Shown here: positions 3,141 through 29,521 of the stretch, one piece after another
Position numbering within the stretch: the first letter of the stretch is position 1
Layout of the letters: each line of letters opens with the position of its first letter
Source: a virus
IMG/VR virus record: IMGVR_UViG_3300034139_000028
Coordinates: 1 to 30,553 of that record
DNA: 30,553 nucleotides
Strand: one strand, 5' to 3'
Notes under the pieces: generated by a model
Seen by the model: the letters and a program-made list of their open reading frames with translations, nothing else
Database searches by the model: none
What the model was told of the DNA's origin: nothing
Position numbers and translations under genes: made by a program

Positions 3141-3146
3141 TATTTA
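3141..3146 (-). promoter_or_regulatory. TAAATA box, long-leader type
   Basis: This is an exact minus-strand TAAATA within CGGGTAAATA. It lies 35 nt upstream of the ATG at 3105, with an SD-like AGGCGAG in between. The leader contains a small GCGGA/TCCGC hairpin. This is the only box far from its start without the hairpin-to-start geometry, and it argues that the box is a promoter element at least here. Confidence 0.6.
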
Positions 3147-3170
3147 CCCGATGGGCACCCCTGCCCCGGC

Positions 3171-3668
3171 TCAAGGCCACGGAGCACCATCGACATCGAC
3201 GGCCTCGATCTCGGCAAGCGTGGCAGCCGCTTCGAGTTGATCCTTCAAAGCGCGAGCAATCGCATGGGCGGTCGAGACGTGCTGCTTAACCGCGAGCGCA
3301 GCGGTCACCATGTCCTCGCCATTGAGCACGACGACCGAATTATCTGCCATCGTCCAGCTTTCGGAAAAGGGCTGCCCGAGCGTCGTCGCCATGAACGCTA
3401 TCGAGAAGGCACCGGTCACCTTCCGCTGACTGTCCGGGTCACTATCCATCCGACCGAACGGCGTATCGGCCCCCGCTTCCTCGACGGCTACCTTCTTCGC
3501 GTTGATGAGGTGCCGCTTGTTCGCTCGCGCGACTTCGAGATCGTGCGCATCCCAGTAGCCCTCGGGGAGCGCGACCGCGCCGTCGGGCAAGGCGTCGCCC
3601 TCGACCGGAATCCATAGCGTGTCGGGTGCCCCGTCGATGCCGGGGATAAGGTAAGACGGCCTCAGCAT
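3171..3668 (-). CDS. DUF4376-type phage tail accessory protein
   Basis: The protein has 165 residues. The C-terminal two thirds have the features of DUF4376: DSDPDSQRKVTGAF, FSESWTMADNSVVVLNGEDM, then a helix with HVSTAHAIARALKDQLEAAA and a terminal EAVDVDGAPWP. Such domains occur at the end of phage tail-fibre regions. The ATG overlaps the upstream stop (TGATG at 3666-3670). It is the last gene of the 4659-to-3171 tail accessory group. Confidence 0.75.
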   Translation of the reverse strand: MLRPSYLIPGIDGAPDTLWIPVEGDALPDGAVALPEGYWDAHDLEVARANKRHLINAKKVAVEEAGADTPFGRMDSDPDSQRKVTGAFSIAFMATTLGQPFSESWTMADNSVVVLNGEDMVTAALAVKQHVSTAHAIARALKDQLEAAATLAEIEAVDVDGAPWP

Positions 3669-4027
3669 CACGGAGCCCACTGCACCGTGAGGGTGCCGCT
3701 CTTGACGTAGAACACGTCGCCCATCGTCGCCCCGCCCGCTCGCCAAGCGAGAAGCTGAAATTCGTAAGTCTGCCCGGCGACCGAGCCGCTCCAAGTGGTC
3801 GAATAGTTGATCGAGCCGTCGTAGCTGGTGCCGTTGCTCAACACCTGTGCAACACCGCCCGGAATGGTCGCGGTGAGGTCCGTCCAAGCGCCGCTCGTCG
3901 TGATGTTGCGGTATTGGATTTTGAAGCTGATGGCCGCGTCGCCGACCTTATCCGCCGCGCTTGTGTGCACCTGATAGGTGAGCGGGAATGTGAGCGAGAG
4001 ATACTTCGGCGAGGTCGGCCCGGTCAC
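3668..4027 (-). CDS. Beta-rich tail accessory protein
   Basis: The protein has 119 residues, with many Ser/Thr/Gly/Tyr residues and alternating beta-strand pattern (KYLSLTFPLTYQVHT, ISFKIQYRN, TYEFQLLAWRA). This is like a small virion surface or fibre-associated domain. I place the start at the GTG at 4027 because it overlaps the upstream stop by GTGA, the junction used repeatedly in this genome. A more distal GTG at 4096 would overlap the upstream gene by 73 nt and has no ribosome site. Function is unknown beyond likely virion association. Confidence 0.6.
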   Translation of the reverse strand: MTGPTSPKYLSLTFPLTYQVHTSAADKVGDAAISFKIQYRNITTSGAWTDLTATIPGGVAQVLSNGTSYDGSINYSTTWSGSVAGQTYEFQLLAWRAGGATMGDVFYVKSGTLTVQWAP

Positions 4028-4659
4028 CTGTAGACCGGTGCAATAGTGGTCGGTGAGCCCGACGAGATCGAAGTGATGAGCGAGAACGTCGAGCACTGCG
4101 TCGACGTGATCGTCGTGCCCGACGCGGGCGGAGGCGGAGCCGGGTCAAGTTGGGCGATGGTGATGAGGGTGCTCGTGAGGGTGACGCCGCCGTAGGTGCT
4201 CGCCACGGCGAGCCATCCGGTCGAGGTGAAGGCCGTCACCGACACGGTGCCGTCTGCGCCCACTGTCGCCGTGCAGTTGGCAGCGGTGACGCTCCACGTC
4301 GCGGACGAGCTTACGTCGGTGGTGCCCTTGAAGCGGGTCACCTTGATCGTGCGGGTGACCTCCCCCGACTTCACCGCGCCCGTGTAGGTGCAATAGAAGA
4401 GGGCCGAGGACGCCGCCTCTTGCCGATGGGTCGAGACCGCCGTCACGTCTGCACCGCTCTCAATGCTATCGAGCTTCGTCTCGCGGTAGGTGTGCGTCGC
4501 CGAACCGTTCGCGAGCGTCACCGTGATCGAGAGCGACTTCGGAGGCCCCGCACTCTTCGAGGCGAGAGTGCCGGTCACTACGTTGCGCCCGAACTGGTCG
4601 GTGAGCGTGTAGAAGGTTCCGACGACGCCGGTGTCGTAGATCGTTTTAAAGTCGGGCAC
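4024..4659 (-). CDS. Beta-sandwich tail protein with Ig-like domain
   Basis: The protein has 211 residues. The first ~95 residues are beta-rich (a phage tail-tip-like domain). Residues about 110-175 look like a bacterial Ig-like (BIG2) domain: ATWSVTAANCTATVGADGTV then STGWLAVASTYGGVTLTSTL. A PAPPPPA linker and a Ser/Thr-rich tail follow. The preferred start is the GTG at 4659, five nt after a TAAATA box; an upstream in-frame GTG would put the box inside the gene. The Ig-like pattern resembles the duplicated domains in the adjacent tail-tip protein, so both probably decorate the tail tip. Confidence 0.6.
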   Translation of the reverse strand: MPDFKTIYDTGVVGTFYTLTDQFGRNVVTGTLASKSAGPPKSLSITVTLANGSATHTYRETKLDSIESGADVTAVSTHRQEAASSALFYCTYTGAVKSGEVTRTIKVTRFKGTTDVSSSATWSVTAANCTATVGADGTVSVTAFTSTGWLAVASTYGGVTLTSTLITIAQLDPAPPPPASGTTITSTQCSTFSLITSISSGSPTTIAPVYR

Positions 4660-4664
4660 GCGGT

Positions 4665-4670
4665 TATTTA
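4665..4670 (-). promoter_or_regulatory. TAAATA box, direct type (5 nt to GTG)
   Basis: GGGGTAAATA lies five nt before the GTG at 4659. The TAA of the box is also the stop codon of the large tail-tip gene (4668-4670), so termination and the next start signal are fused. Confidence 0.65.
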
Positions 4671-7600
4671 CCCCCACGTTCCCGAGTAGGTGCCGGTCGC
4701 GTTCGTGACCGTCTTGCCGTTCTTCCGCACCGCGTAGCCGCCCGCGACGCCGCTCGTCGAAGCCGCTCCCGCGCCGCCGCCGGTGCCACCCGCATTGCCG
4801 TAGGAGGTGCCCGCACCGCCCGCACCGCCGCCCGAGGTCGTGCCGCTCGCGCCATTGCCCGCGCTGCCGTAATCGCCGGTCGCACCACCGCCACCGCTGC
4901 CGTTCGGATAGCCGCCGCCGCCGCCGCCGCCCGCACCGTAGAGGGGTTCACCCGCGTTCCAGTTCGAGGACGCGGAGCCACCATTGCCACCACCACCACC
5001 GCCACGGATTGCACCCGCGTTCGTGATGGTGAGATTCTCCGAACAATAGATGGCGTCGCCACCGTTCGAGCCGGGGCCACCCGCGCCCGAGTAACCGCCG
5101 AAACCGCCGTAGCCGCCGCCGCCCGCCACGGTGACACCTGAGGCCACGTTGACCGTGAGGGCGATGGCATAGGTCGAGGACGGCCAAACGCCCGTGTCGA
5201 TGCCGCGACCGCCGCCCGAGAGCCCGGTCACATTGCCGTTGATGTTGAACGTGATCGTCGCATCAGATGCGCCGGTGTAGCCCGCCACGTCGGCAAGCGT
5301 GCGGAGGTTCACCGTGCCGGTTGTCGCCGAGACATTGAGCGTCGCGGTGAAGGCACTCGCCGGGGTCGCCGGTGCGCCGGTTGCACCCGGTGCGGCGAGA
5401 ACATCCCAGTAGGCGTTAGCCTGTGCGGTGCCGGTCGGGCTGTTACCTACGGTGGTCGTGATGGCAGTGTAGGAGCCGCCGCCAAACGTGACCCAATCGC
5501 CCTGATAGTAGGTCGTCGAGGTAGTGTAGGCTCCACGGTTCGTGAGGCCGGTTATGCGGCCCGGCACGGTCCAGTCCGAGACGAGCGCACCGTCGTAGCG
5601 CTTTAGCGCCCACGACTGCCAAAGCGCGTCGGTGCCACCCGGAACGGCGTCCGACCACCCGCTCGGGTCCGTGCCCGTCGGGGTCGCCGGTTGAGCCGAC
5701 GAGCGGATGAACTTCGTGTCGCGATAGTTGCCCTGAATCGCGAGGCTGATGAACTGAGTGTTCGAGGCATGGCCGGGCGGGAAGCTCGCGTTCGACGTGT
5801 GCGCGGTCGCGCAATGCCACGAGCCGTTTGCATACTGAACCACGTCACCGACCACATAGGCCGTCGAGGCGAGCCATGCGCCGCGAACGGCATTGCGCGT
5901 CGCTCCCATCTCGTTCCAGCCGAGACGGATGCCGGTGATGTCCTGACCAACGCCGCCAATGTGGTAGCCCTGATATATGACTTGAAAATAGGCACAGTTC
6001 GCGTCGAGCGTGAAGCTGCCCTTGCAGTCATGCCAAACGCCACCCGCGAGGGTGTTGTCGAAGTGCAGAATTGACCCGGTGCCAATCTCGGTCGAGCCGT
6101 CGTGCCTCCACTGACGGATAGTGATGTAGACGGTGCCGCCCGTGGTGCCGGGCCGGATGTAGTGTGCCCAGTAGAGCTTCGCGCCGGGGCGACCCTGCAT
6201 TTTGTCATTGTTCGTGCCGCCGTTCGGCACGAAGCGGGAGCTTCCCGAAGCCACAACGTCGTTGAAGCGCCAGTAGAACGGAGCGGGGTCGCCGGTGACC
6301 GCCGCGTAGCGGTTGAGGTTCCCGCCGTAGCCGGTCACGTAATAGCCATCGACGAGACCACCGGTCGTGTCGGTGAGGTTGTGATTCTTGACGAGATTGT
6401 CGCCCGTCGTGGCGTAGAGGTCCGGACGCGACGGCCCCGCGAGATTGCCGAAATTAAGATCGTAGTTCGGGCGGAACTGGATGTTTGTGACGGTCATGGT
6501 GCCGCCTTGCGTTCCACCCGTGAGGGCGAAGATGGGCGAGCCCGTCACCGACACCGCATAGTCGGAGCCGATTTGCGTGGCGTCTTTCCAGAAAGTGACC
6601 GCCTTGCCGTCGAAGACGAATTGGTAGGTCGCGGCGGTGTCGAGCGCGACATAGCCGACGGTCGCGTTTGCGAACGCTGAAATCTGAGCGCCCGTGAAAA
6701 CGAAGCCGTAGCTTTGCCCGTTGATTTGAACGGCGACGTAGCCGTTCGTGCCCGCAGACGGGAGCTTGAACGAAGCCGCGAACGGCCCCCGCACGACTTC
6801 CTTCACGGAGAAGGTCGAGCCGCTCGCATTGAACGTCACGCTGTTGCCGGTGACTGATGCCGTGCCGGTCGTCGTGAAGGTGACGTTCGCAGAAGCGTTC
6901 GCCGCCGCCGTGCTCTTTTCGAGACGCACGACGGTCACGGTGTCGCTCGCGCCCGAGGTAGCACCGGTCGCGGTCACGACGACTTGGCGGTTCGTGCCGA
7001 AATTGGCGGAGGAAAGCGTTCGGCTATCGCCGGTGCCGGTGAGCGTCACACTCGGCGAAGTGGTGAAGTTCACCGTCTCTGAGGTGTTTTGCTTCGTCGC
7101 TGTGAACGTGATGCTCGATGGGCTCGACACATCGAGAACCCCATCCGTGTAGGTGAAGGCTTCGTGGCTCGGCGCAAGCGCGATGACTGCACCGCCCGGC
7201 CCGGTAGCGCCGGTAGCACCGGCTGCTCCGTTCGACCCGGCTGCGCCCGCCTTCGACTTCGCAATCCCATATTCTTTATCGATGGTGACGCTGCCGTAGA
7301 CGGCACGGAGGGTCGCGGTGCCGGTGTCTGCCGACATCGCCGTGACCGAGTAGACACCGTTGGAATTGATCGAGATCGACACGCCCGCCGACGCGGCGAC
7401 GGAGTAGGTAACCGAACCGCTTGTCGTCTTGTCAGTCGTGCCGTCGAACACCCGGAAAGTGCCACCTGCGCCGGTGAAGCTCGACACCGTGCCTGCCGCG
7501 TCTGCCGCTACAGAGTGAGCCTCGTTTGAGAGGAGGCCGACGACCGCGTTCTGCCCGGCTGCACCCGTTGCACCCGTTGCGCCCGCTGCGCCGGTCGCGC

Positions 7601-10193
7601 CGACCGCGCCGTCCTGCACCTTCACGATTGAGATGCGGTCCCCGACGGTGGTGGTCGTGTTGAGACGCGCCTCGAAAATGAGGCCCGTTGTCGCGGCTGC
7701 CGCGAGGTTGGCTTGAAAGCCGGTGTGATTGATTGTGAGCGTGTCGTTGTCCGGCGCGGACATGTAGGATGCACCGCCCATGTTCGAGACGGTCGCGGCA
7801 GCGGTCATCCAGTCGCTGTAGACCGTTCCGTTTGCTCTCAAGACGCGCCACTGAGTCGTCTCCGCGCCCGCGTTCTGGCGAGCGGCTGAGATCGTCGTCG
7901 TCTGTGTCTGAATCGTCCCCGCACTGTTATAGCTGAACGTCTGATGTGACGCCGATACGGCGACCATCTTTGCGCTTGCACCGCTCGTGCCGCTCGTGCC
8001 CGCTGCACCGGCACGAGCCTTCGCAATCGAGTAAACGAGATCGATGGTCGTCCCCGCGTAAACGGCACGAAGCGTTGCCGTGCCCGAGTCTGCCGACATC
8101 GCCGTGACCGAGTAGACACCGTTGGAATTGATCGAGACGGTGACGCCGGTCGAGGACGGCACCGAGTAGGTGACGGAGCCGCCGGTCGTTACCTCGGTGG
8201 TGCCGTTGTAGACGCGGAAGGTGCCCCCTGCCCCGGCGAACGAAGAGACCGTTCCCGAGCTATCGGCGGCGACCGTGTGTGCCTCGTTCGTGAGGATGCC
8301 TTGCGTGGCGTTCGGCCCGCCCGTGATGTGCGAATAGGCAACGCTGAGGACGCCCGCCGTGACCGGCCCGAGGACGCGGCGTTCGGAAAGGATGTTGCGG
8401 TTCGTCCGGTAGGAGACCGCCACCTCGTATTGCGTGCCGGGCGTGACGGCGGTGATCTCGACCTTGGTCGTCGTGCGCGGCGTCTCCGACCACTGAATCC
8501 ACTCGGTCGAGCCGAACGGACGATACTCGGTGATGACGACGGTCGCGTAAGGGTCGTCACTCGTGCCGGTCACGACGAGAGCCGGGATGGTGACGCCCGC
8601 CGAGTTCGTGATCGAGGTCGCCGAGATTGCCCACGCGGTCGCGCCCGGCGCGTCCGGGCTGGTCGGGTCGTAGGTGTTGAGCGATGCCGACGGCGGAGCC
8701 GTCTGAGACTGCCCGAGCGCGAACGCGTGCTTCGCGTCCGTCTCGCTTTTGAGGGTGAGCGAAACCGTTTGGTCGGACGGGTTGAACTCGCGGTGCAAGA
8801 CGAGGCACTTCACCGAGGACGAGGCGACCTCGGGGATGTTCACGGTCGCGCTATCGCCAACGCGAAGGTTGAGGAGCTTGGGCTTCCCGACGAGGTTGAA
8901 AGTGAGAAACTCGCGGGTGTTGCAAAGCTCGTAGGCGGCAAGCTGATGGGCTTGCGCCGCACTCTGCACGAGCGGGAACTCGACCTCTTGCGACTTCTGT
9001 TCGCCGCCGTCCTCGGCGACGTAGGTCGCCGAAGTGACGATCTCCCCCGAGATGATGTTCCAGAATTGCGAGGGCTCGCGATACTGGGGCGTGACCGTGT
9101 TGATGCGGTCGCGCCACGAGGTCGTGTTGACGACCTCGATCTCGCCGACGACATCGGCCTCTTCGACCGTGAAGACGCTCGTGAGCGGTGTGTTGACGAC
9201 ACACGAGATTTGAGCGCCGCGAGTAATCGGAACGCCGCCGCCGGTTTGAAGGATGGTGCCGAGGACGGCGAACTTGTCGTCGTTCGTCGTGACGACGCCG
9301 CCGACCTTCCAATTGTTCGCGTCGGCTACGTTCGCGCCGGTGACGAAGGCCGCGACATCGACCTCATCCCAATTCGCACCGATGCCGTAGACGCGCTTGC
9401 CGTTCGCGTAGCGCCCGAGGGTCCAGTTGAGCGCCGCGAGGTAGGGGTTCTCGCTATACGCCCACGTGGTCGGGTCGTTGACGCGGTGGGAACCGCTGCC
9501 GCCGGGGTAAGTGCTATCGAGGCGGGGGTCGTAGAGCCGCACGCCACGGATGACCCAAAGCGGCTTCGGGACGCCCTGAGGAAAGGCATCCTGATCGTGT
9601 TCGAGCCGCATTACCGCATGCGCGAGGCCCGAGAGCTTGCCGGGGTTGCCGGGCAGCGTGTCGCCGATAGCGGTGCTCGGCGTGAGCGACGCGGGCGCGT
9701 CGCCGAGCTGATACCGCATGCGGAGCTTGTTCTTGTAGAGCTTCGACTTGCCGTTGTCGGGCGAGATGCCCGTTGCAGTGGCGGCAGCCGTCGTCGGGGT
9801 GCCGCTGAAATTGACGAGGTAGTCGGACGCGTAGAAGCTCTCGATGGCGTCGATGGGGCCACCCGCCGAGAGCACGGCGACCATCGCGAGATACTTGTTC
9901 TTCGCGCCGTAGGTGTCTCGGTAGGTGAGGTAGCCGCCGCTCGCGGTGCGACCGTAGGCGACGGGCACCGGCGCTTGCGTGTCGAGCTTAAGGTTTAGCT
10001 GATTTTGCGTGCTGCCCGGCTTTGACATCTTCTTGCTGAGCATGAAGAGACCGACACCGGTGAGACCAACGCCGACGACGGTGAGCACGGTCGCGAGCGA
10101 GATGCCCGCGATTGCAACGCCGACGCCGATAGCGCCCGCGATTGTTCCGGCTGCCATGAAGGCCGCACCGATGAGGGGAAGCGCCATAGGCAT
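4668..10193 (-). CDS. Tail tip (TipJ-like) host-specificity protein with Ig repeats and polyglycine adhesin end
   Basis: The protein has 1841 residues. Residues about 5-55 are two hydrophobic segments (FMAAGTIAGAIGVGVAIAG and neighbours), followed by LDTQAPVPVAYGRTASGGYL, typical of TipJ-like central tail tip proteins. Residues about 90-520 form the conserved tip body. A fibronectin-like domain follows (about 530-630). Next come two near-identical Ig-like modules (coding about 8320-7980 and 7550-7200), each ending in a collagen-like Gly-Ala-Thr stretch. Then come more beta-rich domains including chitin-binding-like WLASTAYVVGDVVQYANG and YTTSTTYYQGDWVTFGGG motifs. The last ~150 residues are strongly glycine-rich (GGGGYGGFGGYSGAGGPG and IRGGGGGGNGGS). 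The ATG at 10193 overlaps the peptidase stop (TAATG). It probably binds the host receptor and triggers ejection. Confidence 0.88.
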   Translation of the reverse strand: MPMALPLIGAAFMAAGTIAGAIGVGVAIAGISLATVLTVVGVGLTGVGLFMLSKKMSKPGSTQNQLNLKLDTQAPVPVAYGRTASGGYLTYRDTYGAKNKYLAMVAVLSAGGPIDAIESFYASDYLVNFSGTPTTAAATATGISPDNGKSKLYKNKLRMRYQLGDAPASLTPSTAIGDTLPGNPGKLSGLAHAVMRLEHDQDAFPQGVPKPLWVIRGVRLYDPRLDSTYPGGSGSHRVNDPTTWAYSENPYLAALNWTLGRYANGKRVYGIGANWDEVDVAAFVTGANVADANNWKVGGVVTTNDDKFAVLGTILQTGGGVPITRGAQISCVVNTPLTSVFTVEEADVVGEIEVVNTTSWRDRINTVTPQYREPSQFWNIISGEIVTSATYVAEDGGEQKSQEVEFPLVQSAAQAHQLAAYELCNTREFLTFNLVGKPKLLNLRVGDSATVNIPEVASSSVKCLVLHREFNPSDQTVSLTLKSETDAKHAFALGQSQTAPPSASLNTYDPTSPDAPGATAWAISATSITNSAGVTIPALVVTGTSDDPYATVVITEYRPFGSTEWIQWSETPRTTTKVEITAVTPGTQYEVAVSYRTNRNILSERRVLGPVTAGVLSVAYSHITGGPNATQGILTNEAHTVAADSSGTVSSFAGAGGTFRVYNGTTEVTTGGSVTYSVPSSTGVTVSINSNGVYSVTAMSADSGTATLRAVYAGTTIDLVYSIAKARAGAAGTSGTSGASAKMVAVSASHQTFSYNSAGTIQTQTTTISAARQNAGAETTQWRVLRANGTVYSDWMTAAATVSNMGGASYMSAPDNDTLTINHTGFQANLAAAATTGLIFEARLNTTTTVGDRISIVKVQDGAVGATGAAGATGATGAAGQNAVVGLLSNEAHSVAADAAGTVSSFTGAGGTFRVFDGTTDKTTSGSVTYSVAASAGVSISINSNGVYSVTAMSADTGTATLRAVYGSVTIDKEYGIAKSKAGAAGSNGAAGATGATGPGGAVIALAPSHEAFTYTDGVLDVSSPSSITFTATKQNTSETVNFTTSPSVTLTGTGDSRTLSSANFGTNRQVVVTATGATSGASDTVTVVRLEKSTAAANASANVTFTTTGTASVTGNSVTFNASGSTFSVKEVVRGPFAASFKLPSAGTNGYVAVQINGQSYGFVFTGAQISAFANATVGYVALDTAATYQFVFDGKAVTFWKDATQIGSDYAVSVTGSPIFALTGGTQGGTMTVTNIQFRPNYDLNFGNLAGPSRPDLYATTGDNLVKNHNLTDTTGGLVDGYYVTGYGGNLNRYAAVTGDPAPFYWRFNDVVASGSSRFVPNGGTNNDKMQGRPGAKLYWAHYIRPGTTGGTVYITIRQWRHDGSTEIGTGSILHFDNTLAGGVWHDCKGSFTLDANCAYFQVIYQGYHIGGVGQDITGIRLGWNEMGATRNAVRGAWLASTAYVVGDVVQYANGSWHCATAHTSNASFPPGHASNTQFISLAIQGNYRDTKFIRSSAQPATPTGTDPSGWSDAVPGGTDALWQSWALKRYDGALVSDWTVPGRITGLTNRGAYTTSTTYYQGDWVTFGGGSYTAITTTVGNSPTGTAQANAYWDVLAAPGATGAPATPASAFTATLNVSATTGTVNLRTLADVAGYTGASDATITFNINGNVTGLSGGGRGIDTGVWPSSTYAIALTVNVASGVTVAGGGGYGGFGGYSGAGGPGSNGGDAIYCSENLTITNAGAIRGGGGGGNGGSASSNWNAGEPLYGAGGGGGGGYPNGSGGGGATGDYGSAGNGASGTTSGGGAGGAGTSYGNAGGTGGGAGAASTSGVAGGYAVRKNGKTVTNATGTYSGTWG
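7210..8320 (-). repeat. Two diverged tandem Ig-like coding modules in the tail tip gene
   Basis: Modules at about 7990-8320 and 7210-7550 encode parallel sequences (NEAHTVAADSSGTVSSF and NEAHSVAADAAGTVSSF, then GAGGTFRV, SINSNGVYSVTAMSAD, GTATLRAVY). A 50-nt stretch is identical between 8088-8137 and 7326-7375, so the duplication is either recent or kept homogeneous by recombination. Boundaries are approximate. Confidence 0.85.
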
Positions 10194-10612
10194 TAGGCGA
10201 CCCTCCAAGCGACGGTGCAGACGCTCACCGGCCCCCACTCGCCGCGACCGTTCGCGAAGCCGAGGATGCGGTCTTGTCCGAGGGCGACGCCGAGCGCCGT
10301 CCACTCTTTGCCGTCTTCGCCGCCGGGGTAGCCCACGATGTCGCCGGGGAGCGCGGCAGCGGGCGGGATGCGCTCGAAGCCGAGGGCATCGATTGCGTCG
10401 GTCATGTCGGCGTAGCCGAGGTGCCGCATCGCCCGGCGAGCACCTAGCTCGGTCGAGTAGTTGCGGGCCTTGGCGTTCGGGTCATCGAGCCCGAGTTCAA
10501 TGAGGAGGTGCCCGACGAGGTGGGCGCAATCCGCCTTCCCCCACTCGAAAGGAGTGAAGAGAAAACGGTCGATGGTGGATTGAGCGGCAGCGACACGCGC
10601 GAGAAGATTCAT
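10193..10612 (-). CDS. Tail-associated C40-type (NlpC/P60-like, DUF6950) peptidase
   Basis: The protein has 139 residues. FEWGKADCAHLVGHLLIELG (about residues 22-41) places a probable catalytic Cys at 29. DIVGYPGG (about 91-98) and ALGVALGQDRILGFA (about 106-120) follow the small C40/DUF6950 pattern of GTA and phage tail peptidases. These usually cleave cell-wall peptides during genome entry. I do not see the canonical catalytic His in its usual context, which is common in the DUF6950 branch. The ATG at 10612 lies five nt after a TAAATA box. It lies directly before the tip protein gene, the usual arrangement. Confidence 0.78.
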   Translation of the reverse strand: MNLLARVAAAQSTIDRFLFTPFEWGKADCAHLVGHLLIELGLDDPNAKARNYSTELGARRAMRHLGYADMTDAIDALGFERIPPAAALPGDIVGYPGGEDGKEWTALGVALGQDRILGFANGRGEWGPVSVCTVAWRVA

Positions 10613-10617
10613 GCGGA

Positions 10618-10623
10618 TATTTA
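10618..10623 (-). promoter_or_regulatory. TAAATA box, direct type (5 nt to ATG)
   Basis: CCCGATAAATA lies five nt before the ATG of the peptidase gene. There is no separate Shine-Dalgarno sequence. Confidence 0.65.
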
Positions 10624-10632
10624 TCGGGCGGC

Positions 10633-11898: not shown

Positions 11899-11904
11899 TA
11901 TTTA
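11899..11904 (-). promoter_or_regulatory. TAAATA box, direct type (4 nt to ATG)
   Basis: CACTCGGGTAAATA lies four nt before the ATG at 11894 and 18 nt after the tape measure stop. The flanking GCCACTCGG is shared with the tape measure box at 14912. Confidence 0.65.
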
Positions 11905-14911: not shown

Positions 14912-14917
14912 TATTTA
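14912..14917 (-). promoter_or_regulatory. TAAATA box, direct type (4 nt to GTG)
   Basis: GCCACTCGGGTAAATA is followed after four nt by the GTG of the tape measure gene. Only 11 nt separate it from the chaperone stop, which leaves no room for a terminator. Confidence 0.65.
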
Positions 14918-15938: not shown

Positions 15939-15975
15939 AATGTCTCCGAGATTAGAGGGTCTCGAAGACTATTTA
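15939..15975 (-). promoter_or_regulatory. TAAATA box plus hairpin leader of the major tail gene
   Basis: The box is at 15970-15975. The hairpin follows immediately: GTCTTCGAGA (15960-15969), loop CCCTCTAA, TCTCGGAGAC (15942-15951). One pair is a U-G wobble. The Shine-Dalgarno GGAG lies inside the 3' arm. The block matches 19420-19456 at 36 of 37 positions, and the one difference (A for G at 15965) preserves pairing. Confidence 0.8.
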
Positions 15976-17373: not shown

Positions 17374-17379
17374 TATTTA
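17374..17379 (-). promoter_or_regulatory. TAAATA box, direct type (4 nt to ATG)
   Basis: CGTCGGGTAAATA lies four nt before the ATG at 17369. Only 14 nt separate it from the connector gene stop. Confidence 0.65.
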
Positions 17380-17982: not shown

Positions 17983-17988
17983 TATTTA
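17983..17988 (-). promoter_or_regulatory. TAAATA box, direct type (4 nt to ATG)
   Basis: TTCCTAAATATGGGATG places the box four nt before the connector ATG. It directly follows the strong inverted repeat at 17993-18026. Confidence 0.65.
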
Positions 17989-17992
17989 GGAA

Positions 17993-18026
17993 GAACGGCC
18001 CCGAGACCGGGGTCTCGGAGCCGTTC
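17993..18026 (-). terminator. 16-bp stem, terminator-like, after the capsid unit
   Basis: On the minus strand GAACGGCTCCGAGACC pairs with GGTCTCGGGGCCGTTC across a CC loop, with a single U-G wobble. TTCC then follows. It sits 20 nt after the stop of the small gene behind the capsid gene and 4 nt before the connector box, so it probably ends or trims the capsid transcript. The T-run is short. Confidence 0.65.
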
Positions 18027-18045: not shown

Positions 18046-18240
18046 CTACCTCGTTCGCTTGCGACGGGTTGTCGCCGTCTCGCGCTTCGGTGAAGTCTCG
18101 GCGGTCTCGATCTCCACTTCGTCACGAAGAGGGATTGCAAGACCGGCTGCACAAAGCCTGACGGCTTCCTCACCGGAGACTTCCTCGCCGGGGTTCCGCA
18201 TGGGTTCCCCGGCGAGCATTACGATCAACTTAGCCCGCAT
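18046..18240 (-). CDS. Small capsid-adjacent protein
   Basis: The protein has 64 residues. LIVMLAGEPMRNPGEEVSGEEAVRLCAAGLAIPL resembles the short proteins common between HK97-type capsid and connector genes (a Pro-Gly-Glu turn then an AAGLA helix). The C-terminus is basic (TATTRRKRTR). The start overlaps the capsid stop (TAATG at 18238-18242). Function is unknown. Confidence 0.7.
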   Translation of the reverse strand: MRAKLIVMLAGEPMRNPGEEVSGEEAVRLCAAGLAIPLRDEVEIETAETSPKRETATTRRKRTR

Positions 18241-19418
18241 TAGGAAGCGGCCTGAGTGAGCACCTTGAGGGCGCGGCTATCGACCACGACACCGCCGATG
18301 CGGGCGAAGCCGACGAAGCCGACCTGATCCGAGGTGGCGAAGCGCTCGTCGAGACGACGGAGAGCGAACCCACCGGCCCGACGGCCCTGATACTTGGCCA
18401 TATCGCCGAAGAGGACGGACTTTGCGGAAGCCGCAATCGTCGCCATGTCGTTGTTGACGGCATAAGCGTAGCCGAAGAGCGTGCCCGGCGCGCTGGCATC
18501 CATGCCCGGACGCCAGATGTAGTCGCCGTCACTGTTCTTCAGCTTACGAAGCACCTTGAGGGTGCCGTCGTTGAACATGAAGGTGCCGCGCGGGCGGTAA
18601 GCCATATCGACCGAGTGGATGAGGTCGATAAGCTCGTCGGCGGCAATTGCGGTCGCCGAAGCGGCAGTGATGCCAGCCGAAGCGCCGGTGACAATGCCCT
18701 GAGGCTGAGCCGAACCGGTGCCGACCGTGCAATGCTCGTTGATGGCGCGACCGAGGCGCTCGGCCATCGCGTCCGTCACGATGCGCGCAACGTCAACACC
18801 CGAGTCCATCAGAAGCTCGTTGCTGACCTTGAAGGTGCCGCTCGTATACTTGTAGACCGGGAGGCTCTTCTGACCGAACGTGAGGTCGGCATCAGCCGCA
18901 TCGGTGTTCTCGGCGAGGAGGGCACCCTTGTTCGAGGTGTCATCCAGCGTCGGGATGTTGATGAGGTTGCCTTCGGCAGTGATGAGCCACGAAGCGCCGC
19001 CACCCTCGTTCATCGGGCCGTAGCCCTTGAGCGCGAGGATGAGGTTGTTCGAGAGGGTCGTCGGGACGGTGAAGCCACCGGCGGCGTTCGTGCCGACCGC
19101 CTGAGCACGAAGCTCACGGTCGTCGATGTTGCCACGGAGGTAATCGACGAAAGCGTCGGACGCCTTCTCGCGGTTGCCTTCAACCGAGCGGGTGTCGCCC
19201 GGAATGAGGGTGTCGGCAGCCTCGAACGCCTTGGCGCGCTCTTCGGCCTCTTCCATGCGCTTCGCACGGGCTTCGAGGCGGTCGTGCTCAGCGATCATGG
19301 TGTCGAACTGAGAGGTGACTTCGGCTTCGTTCGAGCCGTCATCGGTAATGGTGTTGAGAAGGTCGCGGGCTTCGTGGGCTAGACGCTGCGCCTTCTGACG
19401 AATTTCGAGAATGTTCAT
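18240..19418 (-). CDS. Major capsid protein, HK97 family
   Basis: The protein has 392 residues. Residues 1-85 are a charged coiled-coil (QKAQRLAHEARDLLN and EHDRLEARAKRMEEAEERAK), the delta/scaffold domain removed by the protease. The HK97 fold follows: TNAAGGFTVPTTLSNNLI, SWLITAEGNLINIPTLDD, FKVSNELLMDSGVDVARIV, INEHCTVGTGSAQPQGIVTG, LIDLIHSVDMAYRPRGTFMF and FGDMAKYQGRRAGGFALRRL. The gene is preceded by the hairpin leader at 19420-19456. It follows the protease gene, the usual order. Confidence 0.95.
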   Translation of the reverse strand: MNILEIRQKAQRLAHEARDLLNTITDDGSNEAEVTSQFDTMIAEHDRLEARAKRMEEAEERAKAFEAADTLIPGDTRSVEGNREKASDAFVDYLRGNIDDRELRAQAVGTNAAGGFTVPTTLSNNLILALKGYGPMNEGGGASWLITAEGNLINIPTLDDTSNKGALLAENTDAADADLTFGQKSLPVYKYTSGTFKVSNELLMDSGVDVARIVTDAMAERLGRAINEHCTVGTGSAQPQGIVTGASAGITAASATAIAADELIDLIHSVDMAYRPRGTFMFNDGTLKVLRKLKNSDGDYIWRPGMDASAPGTLFGYAYAVNNDMATIAASAKSVLFGDMAKYQGRRAGGFALRRLDERFATSDQVGFVGFARIGGVVVDSRALKVLTQAAS

Positions 19419-19419: not shown

Positions 19420-19456
19420 AATGTCTCCGAGATTAGAGGGTCTCGGAGACTATTTA
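19420..19456 (-). promoter_or_regulatory. TAAATA box plus perfect hairpin leader of the capsid gene
   Basis: The box is at 19451-19456. A perfect 10-bp stem follows at once: GTCTCCGAGA (19441-19450), loop CCCTCTAA, TCTCGGAGAC (19423-19432). Four nt later comes the ATG (19418). The SD-like GGAG is in the 3' arm. Without the hairpin the box-to-ATG distance would be the 4 nt seen at the direct boxes. Confidence 0.82.
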
Positions 19457-21437: not shown

Positions 21438-21443
21438 TATTTA
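21438..21443 (-). promoter_or_regulatory. TAAATA box, direct type (4 nt to ATG)
   Basis: CCCTAAAGTAAATAGGGGATG places the box four nt before the portal ATG. CCC and GGG flank the box as a short stem, as at the TerS box. Confidence 0.68.
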
Positions 21444-21458
21444 CTTTAGGGCGCGTAA

Positions 21459-23485: not shown

Positions 23486-23489
23486 CCCC

Positions 23490-23495
23490 TATTTA
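23490..23495 (-). promoter_or_regulatory. TAAATA box, direct type (4 nt to ATG)
   Basis: CCCCAAAATAAATAGGGG precedes the TerS ATG by four nt. The box lies in the loop of a possible CCCC/GGGG stem and closely matches the portal start. Confidence 0.68.
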
Positions 23496-23565
23496 TTTTG
23501 GGGTGGGGTAAGACGAGGCCGGAAGCACGCTTGCCTCATAATGAAGCGGGTGCAATTCTAGCACC

Positions 23566-24423: not shown

Positions 24424-24576
24424 ACGACCGGCTCAGGTGGCGCGTGTATCGTGTAGACATGGGAGCCGTCCTACCTAGGGATAATCCGTTAATGATCGGG
24501 TCATCCGACTCGGCTCAGTTCTTCCGTGACGGCCGATAAGAGCCGAGGCACCCGAGGCAATCAAGGGAGGATTGGC

Positions 24577-24957: not shown

Positions 24958-25093
24958 AAACAAGCCCTATTTCTGCGGCGTCGCGTGGTTGAGGGAACGC
25001 CGGTGTGGAGGTCCGAAGGCTCTCGTCCTTGACCCACCCCCCGTCGCGTGACGCTGCCTCCCCTCGGCGGCAGAAACGCGACTCAATCTGGCC

Positions 25094-25795
25094 TCAGTCT
25101 TCTTGCGCTCGTTTAGCTTTTCGTAGCGCCCATCTTTTGAGCATCAGGGCTGCGAGGGCTAGTAAAGCTGACGCGACGAGCGAGCCACCCACTCCAATAC
25201 CGGCACCGATCCATCGTTCTCGGACAGCGTTGGCGCGATTGCGTTCCTCTTGCATGCGCAAGAGCGCATCCACTGTTCGCTGGTCCGCTTGCACCACCGG
25301 TTCCAAAGAGGCGCGACGTTGCCGCAAGTCTGCCAGTGCTTGCCGATCAACCTTCATCTGCTCGCGCTGTTGGACAACGAATTGCTCTAGCTGGTTCAAA
25401 CTACGTTGCGTAGCGTCGAGCGACGCAAGTTGCTGTTCAAATGAAGAGGCTTGCGATTCCTTAGGCTGGTCTTGTCCAACGGACATAATGAAGATGACCG
25501 TTGCACCTGCACCACCAACAAGTATTGACGCTAGCTCGGAATAAAACCGCCTGTATTGCTCATCTCCGATCAAGCGCCACCATCGCTGCACCAAGGATGC
25601 TGCTGCGTTACTGGCTATGTTGAGGGCTCCCGCTGTCTTCAGCAAGGAACATGTGTTGCAAATAATTCTTATGTTGCTCTCGTCGATTGTGCCGCCCTGC
25701 GATATCGGCACGATGTGCTCGCGGCGAGCCTGTTGGCGAGCAACTGTCCGGCCACATGCGGCGCATTGCACTTTCGCGTCTGTCGGCATGGCCAC
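25094..25795 (-). CDS. Membrane-anchored HNH-domain protein
   Basis: The protein has 233 residues. Residues 11-53 form an HNH/zinc domain: CAAC (11-14), REHIVPISQGG (His27), SNIRIICNTC (Asn41, C46, C49). A membrane span follows (about 87-106, ILVGGAGATVIFIMSV), then a coiled coil (about 115-190, rich in Gln/Arg/Glu), a second span (about 195-220) and a basic tail (KRWALRKAKRAQED). The HNH head would be cytoplasmic and the coiled coil periplasmic. The start is GTG at 25795 (GAGGG upstream) or ATG at 25789. This architecture is unusual; it suggests a membrane-linked nuclease or defence or exclusion factor, which is inference. Confidence 0.7.
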   Translation of the reverse strand: MAMPTDAKVQCAACGRTVARQQARREHIVPISQGGTIDESNIRIICNTCSLLKTAGALNIASNAAASLVQRWWRLIGDEQYRRFYSELASILVGGAGATVIFIMSVGQDQPKESQASSFEQQLASLDATQRSLNQLEQFVVQQREQMKVDRQALADLRQRRASLEPVVQADQRTVDALLRMQEERNRANAVRERWIGAGIGVGGSLVASALLALAALMLKRWALRKAKRAQED

Positions 25796-25860
25796 GGCTT
25801 ATCCCTCACCCTCTCAATTCTCCACCTTCTTAAGAAACGCGCTCCCTGACAAGGGTAAGG

Positions 25861-26205
25861 TTAGCTCAACTCCTCGGTGCGATTAGCCGGGTGGTGGGGG
25901 TCGAGCGGGTAGCCGTCGAGCCCCGCTGCACAGTCGTAGCCAACGGTCTCCCTCCTCTGCTTAGTAATGGCGTGGCAGGGCTCGCACAGGGACTGTAGCT
26001 CCCCTTCCCAGAAGAGATCGAGGTTGCCTCGGTGAGGCACGATATGGTCGGCGACGTTGGCAGACACAGGGCGTCCCTCGGCAAGGCAGAAGCGACACAG
26101 GGGCTCCGCCGTGAGCTGGGCAAGCCTCCTCTCCTTCCATGCCTTCCTGCCGTAAAGCTTCCGGTATTCCGCAGCCTCAGCGGAGCGGTAGTCTCGATGC
26201 CTCAT
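25861..26205 (-). CDS. Phage HNH endonuclease
   Basis: The protein has 114 residues. PLCRFC (about 37-40) and LCEPCH (about 74-78) bind structural zinc, and VADHIVPHRGNLDLFW (about 51-66) supplies the HNH core. It fits the small HNH nucleases located next to terminase genes and needed for packaging in HK97-type phages. Here an accessory cassette separates it from TerS by 2.4 kb. The ATG at 26205 lies six nt after a TAAGTA variant of the box (26212-26217). Confidence 0.88.
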   Translation of the reverse strand: MRHRDYRSAEAAEYRKLYGRKAWKERRLAQLTAEPLCRFCLAEGRPVSANVADHIVPHRGNLDLFWEGELQSLCEPCHAITKQRRETVGYDCAAGLDGYPLDPHHPANRTEELS

Positions 26206-26211
26206 CGCTGA

Positions 26212-26217
26212 TACTTA
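26212..26217 (-). promoter_or_regulatory. Variant TAAGTA box before the HNH gene
   Basis: GGTATAAGTA lies six nt before the ATG at 26205. It differs from TAAATA by one base and sits at a similar distance, so it is probably a degenerate copy. Confidence 0.45.
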
Positions 26218-26243
26218 TACCGAGCCCATTGTGGGAGAGGCCA

Positions 26244-27125
26244 ATGTCCGAAGAAGACGTCCTTGCCGACTTCAAAATCACCGGTGATGGAATGCGTGAT
26301 ATTATTCGGAGGCAGATAAGCGACATAGAAAAGTGCCTTGATCTTCTTTCACGACGGCGGCTCGGTGAAATCACGTTGCCGCAGGGCGACCCTGCCGTAT
26401 TCTACGTAATTGCGACAATGATCCACATGATTGGTATCAGTGGAGAGTCGGTTCTAAAACTGACAACCGAAGCCGATTTGGGGGCTAAGGACGCATACCC
26501 GATTACGAGAGCTATCATTGAAGGAACAGTGAACGTCTGCTACATTATGGCAAAGGGCAGAGAGACCGCCGAAAAGGCGATGAGGCATGCTGAAGTGAAG
26601 GCATACAGAGACCTCAAGCGGCATTGGGATGCAGGCGGTGTTAGCATCACGATAACGAGTGGAGAAGTTCTACCTCCTGATGAAATCCAAAGACTTGAGG
26701 TCCTCGCCGAAGAGTTCACAACTCGGAAAGGACGAGACATCGACTGGACTGACGACAACCTCAGGCAAAAAATCGACGCCATTGGAGATGTTTTCATCTA
26801 CCAAAGCGTTGACCCGCTTAACCATGCGGCCTTTGCCATATACCGGTCATCGTCTGAAGTTATCCACGGAAGCTACTATGGAGCTTTGTTCTTCTGGGGA
26901 CTTAAGCTCACGAATCAAGACGAGCCGTTCTCAGAGCATGACGCTGTTCAGTTGATGCATGAGCATCGAAATAACGTGTTGATGGCAGTGGCGCTTTCGT
27001 ATAGCAGCCTTCTAGCGTGCTTCGGCGACTACATCGGTGCTTTAGAATTAGAAAGAGCCGCTATGGCGGACCTCGAAAGATTAGGGTCTCTGCCAATGGT
27101 CCAAGCCCTCAAGCCGTTGACTTGA
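26244..27125 (+). CDS. DUF5677-like accessory protein
   Basis: The protein has 293 residues and is mostly helical. Features such as DAYPITRAIIEGTVNVCYIM, MRHAEVKAYRDLKRHWDAGG and YRSSSEVIHGSYYG resemble DUF5677-type proteins of unknown function. The gene looks less G+C-rich than its neighbours and is read against the phage late direction, so it is likely a transferred gene. The ATG at 26244 has GGGAGAGG six nt upstream. It is transcribed from its own signal. Some DUF5677 members occur near defence genes, but no role is shown here. Confidence 0.6.
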   Translation: MSEEDVLADFKITGDGMRDIIRRQISDIEKCLDLLSRRRLGEITLPQGDPAVFYVIATMIHMIGISGESVLKLTTEADLGAKDAYPITRAIIEGTVNVCYIMAKGRETAEKAMRHAEVKAYRDLKRHWDAGGVSITITSGEVLPPDEIQRLEVLAEEFTTRKGRDIDWTDDNLRQKIDAIGDVFIYQSVDPLNHAAFAIYRSSSEVIHGSYYGALFFWGLKLTNQDEPFSEHDAVQLMHEHRNNVLMAVALSYSSLLACFGDYIGALELERAAMADLERLGSLPMVQALKPLT

Positions 27126-27149
27126 AACCGGCACTAGCCCCCGGCACAG

Positions 27150-27362
27150 CTAAAGCGAGGGACCACCGGGCAGACCGGGGAGCCCACTCAGCTTCGGCAA
27201 GGGCCTCGCGGCGTAGTGCACGCCGAAGAACCGGATGAGCGCGTCGGCGAAGCCGTATAGCTCCCGCTCCCTCACCTTGGGGTCGGTGCACGTGGCGGGC
27301 TGCCACTTCATGATCTCGGCACAGATGAGGGCGACCACATCGTCGCGGCTCGGCTCAATCAT
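27150..27362 (-). CDS. Small phage protein, unknown
   Basis: The protein has 70 residues from the ATG at 27362, which overlaps the upstream stop (ATGATTGA). The GTG at 27371 is an alternative. Sequence elements DDVVALICAEIMKWQPATCT and ELYGFADALIRFFG suggest helices. It is the last of four coupled genes. Function is unknown. Confidence 0.6.
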   Translation of the reverse strand: MIEPSRDDVVALICAEIMKWQPATCTDPKVRERELYGFADALIRFFGVHYAARPLPKLSGLPGLPGGPSL

Positions 27363-27585
27363 CGACGGCACCTCGAAGCTTCCTCAGCCCGGCACGGGCC
27401 GAGACTGCGCCTAGGATCGAGGTCACGAAGGCTGCCCCGTAGCCGAGTGCGCCCATAGCGATCATTCCGACCCTGATGGGCAGCGGAGCACCCCAGTCCG
27501 TCACTAGGGCACCCGCTGCCACGAGGAGAAGCGTGGCGAGCCCCCAAAGGATGAGGGCGTCGCGGAGGTCTCGAATATCGGTCAT
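27355..27585 (-). CDS. Small membrane protein, two predicted spans
   Basis: The protein has 76 residues. It has two hydrophobic segments (about 10-30, LILWGLATLLLVAAGALV, and about 38-58, VGMIAMGALGYGAAFVTSI) and a basic end (RAGLRKLRGAVDD). The ATG overlaps the upstream stop (ATGA at 27582-27585). A small holin would fit, but location outside the lysis region makes that uncertain. Confidence 0.65.
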   Translation of the reverse strand: MTDIRDLRDALILWGLATLLLVAAGALVTDWGAPLPIRVGMIAMGALGYGAAFVTSILGAVSARAGLRKLRGAVDD

Positions 27586-27827
27586 ACAACCCCCGAGAGG
27601 AGCCGTATGCGCAAGCTGGGGAGCCAGACCCTTAGCGTGACGGGACGCGCCTCACGGAGGCTGTAGAGGGCCTCTAGGGCGACCGAGAGAGCGTGCTCGA
27701 ACACCTCAGGTGGGATGACGCCGAGGTCTTCGAGACCCGCTTGCTTAGCCATGTTTGAGACTCGACCCTCGGCTATGACGCGATCGATGTTGATGAGGCT
27801 GTAACGGTGGTCGGGTTGCGGTGGCAT
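27582..27827 (-). CDS. Small phage protein, unknown
   Basis: The protein has 81 residues from the ATG at 27827, which overlaps the upstream stop (TGATG at 27825-27829). It contains MAKQAGLEDLGVIPPEVFEHALSVALEALYSLRE-like helical character. Not recognised. Confidence 0.62.
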   Translation of the reverse strand: MPPQPDHRYSLINIDRVIAEGRVSNMAKQAGLEDLGVIPPEVFEHALSVALEALYSLREARPVTLRVWLPSLRIRLLSGVV

Positions 27828-28135
27828 CAGGGTTCCTTGGGCGGGGGTAAAGTTGGGGTGGCGAGCCGCGCCGCCTTGCGGCGACGATAATTTTCGCGGG
27901 TCTGGCGACGTAAGCGCTCGCGCTTCTCGGGGTCGGCGTATCGCCGCTTGTGGCGTGCGGCTCGTGCAGCCTTCACCTTTTCGGGATAGCGAGCTTCGTG
28001 GGCGGGGCGGTATTCTGCCGCCTTCTTGTCGGCGCACTTCCGACAAAGCCGGTTGACCCACTTTGGAGTGCAGAAGCTCTTATACCAATTGACCCCGACG
28101 ACGAGATCGACATTGCAGTGACGACACTTGTTCAT
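27827..28135 (-). CDS. Zinc-finger protein with basic tail
   Basis: The protein has 102 residues. KCRHC (about 3-7) and LCRKC (about 30-34) are two Cys pairs likely binding zinc. The rest is very basic (ARHKRRYADPEKRERLRRQT), suggesting nucleic-acid binding. The ATG at 28135 lies five nt after a box in the full form TATAAATA. It leads a four-gene group. Confidence 0.68.
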   Translation of the reverse strand: MNKCRHCNVDLVVGVNWYKSFCTPKWVNRLCRKCADKKAAEYRPAHEARYPEKVKAARAARHKRRYADPEKRERLRRQTRENYRRRKAARLATPTLPPPKEP

Positions 28136-28140
28136 TGCCG

Positions 28141-28146
28141 TATTTA
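28141..28146 (-). promoter_or_regulatory. TAAATA box, direct type, full TATAAATA
   Basis: The minus strand reads CGGTATAAATACGGCAATG; the box is five nt before the ATG at 28135. The eight-base TATAAATA is identical to the T4 late promoter core, an interesting match that could be coincidence. Confidence 0.66.
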
Positions 28147-28208
28147 TACCGTGAGGCAAAGTCACGCGCCGAAAACCAACGTGACTTACGCCGCGTTTTC
28201 GGCACACG

Positions 28209-28238
28209 CCGCTGCGCTCACCTGTCAGCGGTCTTTTT
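28209..28238 (+). terminator. Possible rho-independent terminator, plus strand
   Basis: CCGCTG (28209-28214) and CAGCGG (28226-28231) form a 6-bp stem with an 11-nt loop, followed by TCTTTTT. No plus-strand gene ends within 1 kb, so the match may be fortuitous or serve read-through from 27125. Confidence 0.35.
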
Positions 28239-28384
28239 ATAGAACTTTTCCACACGAGGCCCTGCCCCAAGTTATCGAATCCCACGAGGCGGAGCCGAGA
28301 CGAGGAGTTTCAAATCTACGGAGCGAATGCGACCACGAGCGGTCTCGGTCCACGTAGACGCGGCTGAAAGCCGGTATTCGTGCG

Positions 28385-28456
28385 GAGATTTCCCGAAATC
28401 TCTATTAATACCTTTTTCTAAGATTCTATCTCTCTGACGGTATTAATAGAGATTTC
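28385..28456. repeat. Perfect 18-bp AT-rich inverted repeat with third half-site
   Basis: The left arm (28395-28412) starts GAAATCTCTATTAATACC. The right arm (28439-28456) is its exact inverse complement, GGTATTAATAGAGATTTC. The loop is 26 nt. A further GAGATTTC (28385-28392) can pair with GAAATCTC (28395-28402), so two mutually exclusive structures are possible. Confidence 0.85.
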
Positions 28457-28480
28457 GCCTCCGCGACCTGTCGGAGAAAC

Positions 28481-29221
28481 CTACACGTAATCGACCGCAA
28501 GGGTCTTTTGAGAAGCCCACCCGTGAAGGACGGGACTCGTGCTGAAACGGGTCTGCAATTTGGCGTTGCCGGTGAGGGGCTTGCCTGAGGCATCCGTGGC
28601 GCGGAAGTCGGTGAGGTCCATCCTCGCCGTGGTCAAGTAGAGGTCGGTGAAGGTGACGGCACCGTTCGTGAGGCCGACGTGCACGACCTGCCCGTCGTGA
28701 TAGAGCGTGCCGGGGTTCTTACTCTTGAGCATGCCGAAGAGCCCCTTTGCCGGGTAGGCGTCGGCAAGGGCGACGAGGAACTTCGCATAGCTGGCGCTGA
28801 TGGGATTGAGGAGCTTCGTGCTTTGGAGCCGCTCGGCTTCGCTCTTGAGCCGGTCGGCTGTCACGAGGTCTGCCATGCCCCGAAATGCGAGCGCGTTGCG
28901 GCTCGCGAAGTTCACCGAGCGGGCGTCGCACGTCCACGCCTTGAAGGTCATGGCGTAGCGGATGGGCTTGCTCTTCACTTTCCGACCCTGAGGCCAGTTA
29001 TCGAAGATCGTGGTTTCGAGCGCGGTCATGTCGCTCGGTAGCGGGCACGGCGACACCTTCTCGGCTCCGCTTGTCGCGGCAAAGTCTTCGGGCGTGAAGA
29101 CTCCAGCCGCCAAGAGCCGGGCCTTGAACGCAGCCTTCATCGTGACTGGATCGAGATCGACCATCTCACCCATCCGCAGGATGGCGGCATCGATCTCTTT
29201 GAAGCCAAGCCGGTCGGTCAC
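28481..29221 (-). CDS. Phage protein of unknown function
   Basis: The protein has 246 residues from the GTG at 29221, which overlaps the upstream HTH gene's stop by GTGA. It has an N-terminal helical part (FKEIDAAILRMGEMVDLD) and a beta-rich C-terminus (VVHVGLTNGAVTFTDLYLTT). No motif is recognised. The coupling with an AlpA-like HTH gene suggests a shared early or regulatory role. Confidence 0.65.
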   Translation of the reverse strand: MTDRLGFKEIDAAILRMGEMVDLDPVTMKAAFKARLLAAGVFTPEDFAATSGAEKVSPCPLPSDMTALETTIFDNWPQGRKVKSKPIRYAMTFKAWTCDARSVNFASRNALAFRGMADLVTADRLKSEAERLQSTKLLNPISASYAKFLVALADAYPAKGLFGMLKSKNPGTLYHDGQVVHVGLTNGAVTFTDLYLTTARMDLTDFRATDASGKPLTGNAKLQTRFSTSPVLHGWASQKTLAVDYV

Positions 29222-29382
29222 CGCGCGGCGACCCATGCGGCGATGTCGGTCGCGCGCCACTGGAGGTCACCGGGCTTATCGACCGGCTTCGGAAACCCGG
29301 GCAGCTTGCGCATCACATAGAGGGTCTGTCGGCTGCATTTGAAATAATGCGTAAGGTCTTTGGTCGTGAGAAGTTCGGGCAC
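29218..29382 (-). CDS. AlpA-like helix-turn-helix protein
   Basis: The protein has 54 residues. LLTTKDLTHYFKCSRQTLYV then KLPGFPKPV and RATDIAAWV is the standard AlpA/HTH_17 pattern. The GTG at 29382 is chosen because a hairpin leader with GGAGACC ends four nt upstream; a longer in-frame start would include the leader. It is divergent from the plus-strand operon, so it may regulate that region. It is the second such protein in the window, with one at 1977-2162. Confidence 0.78.
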   Translation of the reverse strand: MPELLTTKDLTHYFKCSRQTLYVMRKLPGFPKPVDKPGDLQWRATDIAAWVAAR

Positions 29383-29386
29383 GTTA

Positions 29387-29413
29387 GGTCTCCGGTGAGT
29401 GAGACCATATTTA
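29387..29413 (-). promoter_or_regulatory. TAAATA box plus hairpin leader of the HTH gene
   Basis: The box is at 29408-29413 (GATAAATA). One nt later comes a 6-bp stem GGTCTC (29401-29406), 8-nt loop, GAGACC (29387-29392), then TAAC and the GTG. GGAG lies at the loop/3' arm junction. Confidence 0.75.
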
Positions 29414-29495
29414 TCAAACCCGTCCAAGTAGGCGCAATAAAGTCCTTTCCTGTTTCATCGCGTAAACTTAGGTCCGCAGGGGTTTGCGTGAAAGA

Positions 29496-29521
29496 TAAAT
29501 AACTCCGTAACATTTACGGAG
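29496..29521 (+). promoter_or_regulatory. TAAATA box plus hairpin leader of the plus-strand operon
   Basis: GATAAATA (29494-29501; box 29496-29501) is followed one nt later by CTCCGTAA (29503-29510), loop CAT and TTACGGAG (29514-29521), a perfect 8-bp stem. GGAGG of the ribosome site spans its 3' arm and end. The ATG is at 29527. This is the only copy on the plus strand, and it precedes a plus-strand gene. Confidence 0.8.

Follow-up and report, generated by a model that had tools for sequence, protein, structure and literature searches.

The DNA considered here, referred to as the window, is a linear viral contig of 30,553 nucleotides (nt), possibly a fragment (IMG/VR record IMGVR_UViG_3300034139_000028). 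Its minus strand carries the virion genes of a phage in the order terS-terL, portal-protease, capsid, adaptor, connectors, tail tube, tape measure, distal tail and fibre, as called by a simple in-house gene caller and named by family scans. A pattern search finds the hexamer TAAATA, hereafter the box, 14 times in the window, 13 times on the strand of the virion genes and once on the plus strand, and each copy opens a gene group (Table 1). Besides virion genes, these groups contain probable lysis genes and a few small ones. With a probability of roughly 0.7, the box is the core of a phage-specific promoter akin to the late promoters of T4, which would yield leaderless mRNAs wherever it lies close to a start codon, and whose genes would be masked in RNA that reads through from upstream.

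Nine of the boxes lie 4-5 nt ahead of an ATG or GTG, and the remaining five are followed by leaders of about 25-37 nt. The arrangement box-N4/5-RTG is found nine times on the gene strand and never on the opposite one, with 0.025 expected. Virion genes that lack a box overlap their upstream neighbor or start at most 5 nt after it, and no box accompanies the plus-strand genes at 23.5-27.1 kb. Among the latter, a DUF5677 gene (26244-27125) located in a stretch of lower GC content beside the virion operon looks like an acquired accessory gene. The 14 positions, the nine short spacings, the orientation of the boxes towards the phage genes and the overlaps of boxless genes had all been described in an earlier, sequence-only reading of the window, and they are borne out here. 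Its statement that no box lies inside a gene is off by three bases, as the copy at 4665-4670 takes in the TAA stop codon of the preceding gene. It was also right that chance would supply only a few copies, since 100 dinucleotide-preserving shuffles gave a mean of 1.05 and a maximum of 5. Intergenic DNA is generally more AT-rich, and the boxes might on this account be ascribed to chance or base composition. This explanation is considered already refuted, given that none of the shuffles reaches 14 copies, that the boxes are kept at the same genes across diverged phages, and that distant relatives of similar GC content are devoid of the pattern.

Table 1. Boxes and associated features (window coordinates unless a contig is named; SD, Shine-Dalgarno sequence)
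Feature	Position	Strand	Remarks
Box, then hairpin leader and ATG at 29527	29496..29501	+	Hairpin CTCCGTAA...TTACGGAG (29503-29521) masks SD
Box, then hairpin leader and GTG of HTH_17 gene 29218-29382	29408..29413	-	Hairpin GGTCTC...GAGACC (29406-29387)
Box within full TATAAATA	28141..28146	-	5 nt before ATG of gene 27827-28135
Box of terminase small subunit gene	23490..23495	-	4 nt before ATG; group terS-terL
Box of portal gene	21438..21443	-	4 nt before ATG; group portal-protease
Box of major capsid gene leader	19451..19456	-	
Capsid leader hairpin GTCTCCGAGA-CCCTCTAA-TCTCGGAGAC	19423..19450	-	Immediately 3' of box; SD GGAG in right arm, anti-SD in left arm
Major capsid protein gene	18240..19418	-	phrog_10, E 2.8e-75
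Intrinsic terminator (stem-loop + TTCTTCC)	17989..18023	-	3' of capsid gene, abutting next box
Box of head-tail adaptor gene	17983..17988	-	4 nt before ATG
Box of four-gene connector group	17374..17379	-	4 nt before ATG
Box of major tail protein leader	15970..15975	-	
Tail-protein leader hairpin GTCTTCGAGA...TCTCGGAGAC	15942..15969	-	Immediately 3' of box; masks SD
Box of tape measure gene	14912..14917	-	4 nt before GTG
Stem GCCACTCGG/CCGTGTGGC	14927-14903	-	Across tape measure box and start codon
Box of distal tail gene	11899..11904	-	4 nt before ATG
Stem GGCCACTCGG/CCGATGGCC	11915-11889	-	Across distal tail box and start codon
Box of tail gene 10193-10612	10618..10623	-	5 nt before ATG
Box of gene 4024-4659	4665..4670	-	5 nt before GTG; overlaps TAA stop of tail-fibre gene
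Imperfect stem	4687-4674 / 4663-4650	-	Flanks box 4665..4670
Box, ~35-nt leader, then gene 2698-3105	3141..3146	-	
HNH-terS element, window	25041-24954	-	Weak match, E 0.31
HNH-terS element, other copies	L120 1975-2115; L204 8437-8295; L117 18824-18682; L129 1706-1804; L126 1888-1991; L165 558-647		
Perfect 19-bp inverted repeat CGAAATCTCTATTAATACC / GGTATTAATAGAGATTTCG	28394-28412 and 28439-28457		Intergenic; spacing 26 nt

Conservation of the box in related phages and prophages

A direct DNA search of phage records with the window gave no match, and searching viral contigs with a single terminase or capsid protein gave no relatives; these were found by searches with alignments of the capsid (L013, L019, L023 and two Novosphingobium prophages) or of the tail tube (L123-L127, L129, L165, L170), some contigs being overlapping or near-duplicate (L125/L126, L023/L130, L013/L128). 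A motif search among related phages, proposed as a check in the sequence-only reading, shows that the box keeps its position and strand at homologous genes. The pattern is present in at least 12 related contigs or prophages, of which two belong to named genomes, those of Novosphingobium silvae and N. chloroacetimidivorans. In the contigs (L013/L128, L019, L023/L130, L123-L127, L129, L165, L170) and in both of these prophages, the box is found on the gene strand before homologous genes, and each related locus has 5-9 copies of box-N4/5-RTG on one strand, compared with 0 to 0.2 expected. L170, with 49% GC, has boxes on both strands.

The host genomes and more distant phage relatives do not use the box. 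TAAATA is rarer than its mirror image in both Novosphingobium host genomes, and box-N4/5-ATG is near its control level over 60 genomes of the genus group, prophage clusters excepted. The pattern is missing from named phages of Rhizobium, Labrenzia and Halomonas, whose capsid identity is about 40%, and two further contigs (L109 and L110) contain several TAAATA, none of them at start codons. On the other hand, a prophage in another genome of the Novosphingobium group (G039, 524-563 kb) has 17 copies of box-N4/5-RTG against 0.9 expected, with a box opening nearly every virion gene group. Its virion genes are largely unrelated to those of the other box phages, with which it has in common only a tail-fibre segment, an integrase and mobile-element genes; a portal search starting from it yielded one weak relative only. 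No description of the motif in sphingomonad phages was found in the literature searched.

Spacing, terminators and the promoter reading

Among 141 boxes in 13 contigs, 99 lie 3-7 nt before a start. The columns and spacing were analyzed in a subset of 67 boxes, in which the distance is 4-5 nt in 40 of the 47 near-start cases, no position upstream is informative, so that a -35-like column is absent, and the base directly 5' of the box is never T. Starts near a box are ATG in 56 of 58 cases, as opposed to 103 of 120 in other genes (p 0.04). None of those 58 genes has an SD, which is in part a matter of construction, the box filling the place of the SD. Nearly all genes with a leader (20 of 21) have an SD of their own, and the box is therefore not needed there for ribosome binding.

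In each of the 12 contigs inspected (the window, both named Novosphingobium prophages, L019, L130, L124, L125, L126, L129, L165, L170 and G039), the capsid gene is followed by an intrinsic terminator, its T run stopping 2-15 nt before the next box. The terminators were detected by a scan, or by eye in the N. silvae prophage and in G039, the capsid gene of the latter being presumed from its place. Between this terminator and the start codon there are only the box and 4-6 more bases, and among 100 starts without a box, used as a control, one had such a terminator.

Not every box is followed by a start codon. In six phages, a box with no open reading frame behind it lies 65-106 nt upstream of a conserved element, AGGGGGTGGNTCGA...CCGCATTTCAGCAGGTTATTTTT, located between an HNH gene and terS, which is probably a cos packaging site or a non-coding RNA. 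Elsewhere, a box is followed by a near-perfect hairpin with no open reading frame (L214, at 531569 and 532049 in the coordinates of the G039 contig; N. silvae contig C62, at 192009), and one such unit is present in two repeat copies. These hairpins might possibly be short RNAs. An Rfam search returned nothing relevant.

These features bear on the two options left by the sequence-only reading. According to one of them, UAAAUA would be a translation signal substituting for the SD on long late transcripts. The box does occupy the usual place of an SD, 4-5 nt before the start, and the genes near it lack one, subject to the bias just mentioned. Such a signal fails to account, however, for the terminators that stop just short of the boxes, for the boxes without a start codon, and for the capsid and tail-tube genes, which have a normal SD while their box lies some 20-30 nt upstream, past a hairpin. 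Moreover, long transcripts bearing the box would in many cases fold across the start, and host genes do not use the box, all of which makes this option unlikely. The other option, a short promoter, fits the conservation, the orientation, the terminators, the start-less boxes and the leader genes with their own SD, and the comparison with T4 late promoters that came with it was apt; the promoter activity, like the leaderless messages, is our inference.

On this reading, the box would act as an element of the -10 kind that has no -35 partner, and RNA would begin about 5-6 nt 3' of it. By our own placement, the T4 late element would end at -6 and RNA would start at the sixth base after it, with which the flipped adenines at -12, -9 and -8 of the T4 late promoter are consistent (PMC7892883). 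If this spacing applies, a box situated 4-5 nt from an ATG places the RNA start at the start codon or within one base of it, and the mRNA would be leaderless. For capsid, tail tube and a few other genes, the mRNA would instead carry some 25 nt of leader that includes a normal SD, and the genes within a group would be translated mostly by coupling.

Cleavage of a long late mRNA by a nuclease at the box is less probable still than a translation signal. An A/U-rich site before hairpins might suit an RNase E-like enzyme, and cleavage would likewise be expected to remove the masking strand described below. Nevertheless, the terminators just upstream would halt the long RNA, and six invariant bases, a strict distance to the start codon and the exclusion of T just 5' of the box are unusual for processing sites.

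Pairing across the box and predicted masking of starts

All structure results are computed. For the 99 near-start boxes, 98 of which were usable, the 32 nt before the box were compared with the 36 nt after it, the control being pairing with the flanks of other boxes in the same phage (200 derangements). The flanks pair better with their own partner than with others of the same phage (z -7.6), and no derangement was as strong; no such preference appears at random sites (z 0.2) or at non-box starts (z +1.9). The clearest stems include the start codon, such as GGAATGTGGTCGCC-box-GGCGATCACATTTCC in L124 and TCGCCATCGGA-box-TCCGATGGCGA in the N. chloroacetimidivorans prophage. The stems GGCCACTCGG-box-CCGATGGCC at 11904 and GCCACTCGG-box-CCGTGTGGC at 14917 are examples from the window.

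In genes with a leader, it is the SD that appears to be hidden. Its computed unpaired fraction is 0.08 in read-through RNA, compared with 0.32 for ordinary SD genes, and rises to 0.30 if the RNA begins at the sixth base after the box, a partial release. Partners at or before that base, a cut that assumes the T4 spacing, account for 0.79 of the pairing weight of the SD, as against 0.30 in ordinary genes and 0.52 (standard deviation 0.05) when the left parts are exchanged. The partner lies directly 3' of the box in the window, the N. silvae prophage (tail tube), L130 and L125, and 6-33 nt 5' of the box in the N. chloroacetimidivorans prophage (tail tube), L123, L124 (tail tube), L127, L019 and L129. 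Because the masking strand thus differs in position at the same gene among related phages, it is suggested that masking itself is what is kept.

Read-through RNA is accordingly modeled as folding over the box and hiding start codons or SDs, the masking strand lying mostly upstream of the proposed RNA start. In such RNA, the additional 5' sequence would pair over the box with the start region or the SD and the gene would be silent, while transcription begun at the box would produce an mRNA from which the masking strand is missing. This predicted cross-box masking is new in the present analysis and had been missed by the sequence-only reading.

Alternatively, the box might be a promoter at or inside which RNA starts, of a mitochondrial type or like that of phiKZ, and the leader would then keep its whole hairpin as a protection of the 5' end. 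Many capsid and tail-tube leader hairpins begin 0-1 nt after the box, and the full stem would therefore form only in RNA that includes those bases. However, the mRNAs of the most abundant virion proteins would then conceal their own SD (0.17 unpaired). The masking strand of L123, L124, L127, L019 and L129 is located 5' of the box, which leaves the masking of read-through RNA as the common feature, and no single-subunit RNA polymerase was seen among the proteins scanned. A start at or inside the box is thus improbable.

Several observations weigh against a T4-like promoter combined with masking. The base directly 5' of TAAATA is A in 36 of 67 boxes, and 6 of the 67 have T one position further out. 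Complete copies of the octamer TATAAATA are rare, the window having a single one at 28148-28141, and only its 3' six bases are shared by the boxes. Strong cross-box stems (score 9 or more) are found at 15% of boxes, a minority, compared with 1.8% expected, and cross-box pairing is weak in G039 (38/1000). Since G.T and A.C mismatches are about equally frequent in the stems (19 vs 16), their origin at the RNA rather than the DNA level is unproven. In the capsid leaders of L124 and of the two named Novosphingobium prophages, the computed partner of the SD lies partly or wholly past the sixth base. As for a recognition factor, a Sigma70_r2 search found no match in the box contigs searched or the two prophages, nor was GcrA found in them, although gp55 is highly diverged and the contigs are mostly partial. 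An all-against-all protein comparison, mostly of fragments, revealed no gene or regulator common to all box phages, and Pfam and PHROG scans for a shared factor similarly gave nothing universal. Candidates for the factor are a small diverged phage protein, the product of a gene not covered by the contigs, or a protein supplied by the host.

Close to the box at 29408..29413, the minus-strand segment 28481-29382 comprises the HTH_17 (AlpA-like) gene followed by a gene for a protein of 251 residues of an unnamed family (28481-29236), which is present in three phages only (the window, L119:14004-14840 and L211:8382-9062).

More tentatively, the whole late regulon might be gated by the point at which transcription starts. 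Each gene group would be translatable only from RNA begun at its own six-base promoter, read by a putative phage- or host-encoded specificity factor distinct from any recognizable sigma factor, and Novosphingobium-type phages with unrelated virion genes would use the same device. If the reading as promoters with masking is right, these phages express their virion genes, for the most part in leaderless form, from some twelve very small promoters, with RNA folding as the block to read-through expression, and a control known for a few T4 genes reaches a whole regulon in an unrelated group of temperate phages. Start sites would also be predictable from sequence, and a further RNA polymerase specificity factor would be implied.

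Comparison with known systems

The boxes are real and conserved, and on sequence grounds the proposed mechanism most resembles T4 late promoters combined with masking of the T4 e type, a likeness that falls short of proven membership. T4 late promoters (TATAAATA, or NATAAATA in cyanophages), which depend on gp55, gp33 and gp45, share with the box the TAAATA core, the lack of a -35 (PMC7892883) and the association with late virion genes, and the distance from box to start codon fits the T4 start-site spacing. In contrast, the first two bases of the octamer are not conserved here and no gp55-like gene was found in the mostly partial contigs searched or the two prophages; the box phages are siphophages of Novosphingobium-type hosts, and the box mostly abuts the start codon, so that the mRNAs would be leaderless. 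In Caulobacter, another alphaproteobacterium, 375 leaderless mRNAs are translated with normal efficiency (PMC4117421).

In T4, long early transcripts mask translation of e, soc, 49 and I-TevI, and late starts free e (PMC3014915). A hairpin conceals the SD or AUG of these genes; its 5' strand contains the late promoter or adjoins it, and a start there removes that strand. Similarly, in silico, the SD or AUG of box genes is hidden in RNA coming from upstream, with the hairpin's 5' strand mostly ahead of the assumed start. Such masking concerns a handful of genes in T4, whereas here it would extend to many virion genes and to leaderless starts as well.

Two other systems are less close. The TANNNT motif of Deinococcus-Thermus is likewise a -10-type element directly before the start codon that gives leaderless mRNAs, but it lies about 6-7 bp before the open reading frame and is read by the host RpoD at host genes, while TAAATA ends in A, lies 4-5 nt from the start and serves phage genes only. 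The SAS/ESAS elements of cluster K mycobacteriophages are also short one-way repeats 3-7 bp before mostly ATG starts, some with inverted repeats; SAS, however, is a 13-bp sequence with an AGGAG SD core that precedes non-structural genes, whereas the box has no SD and precedes virion genes.

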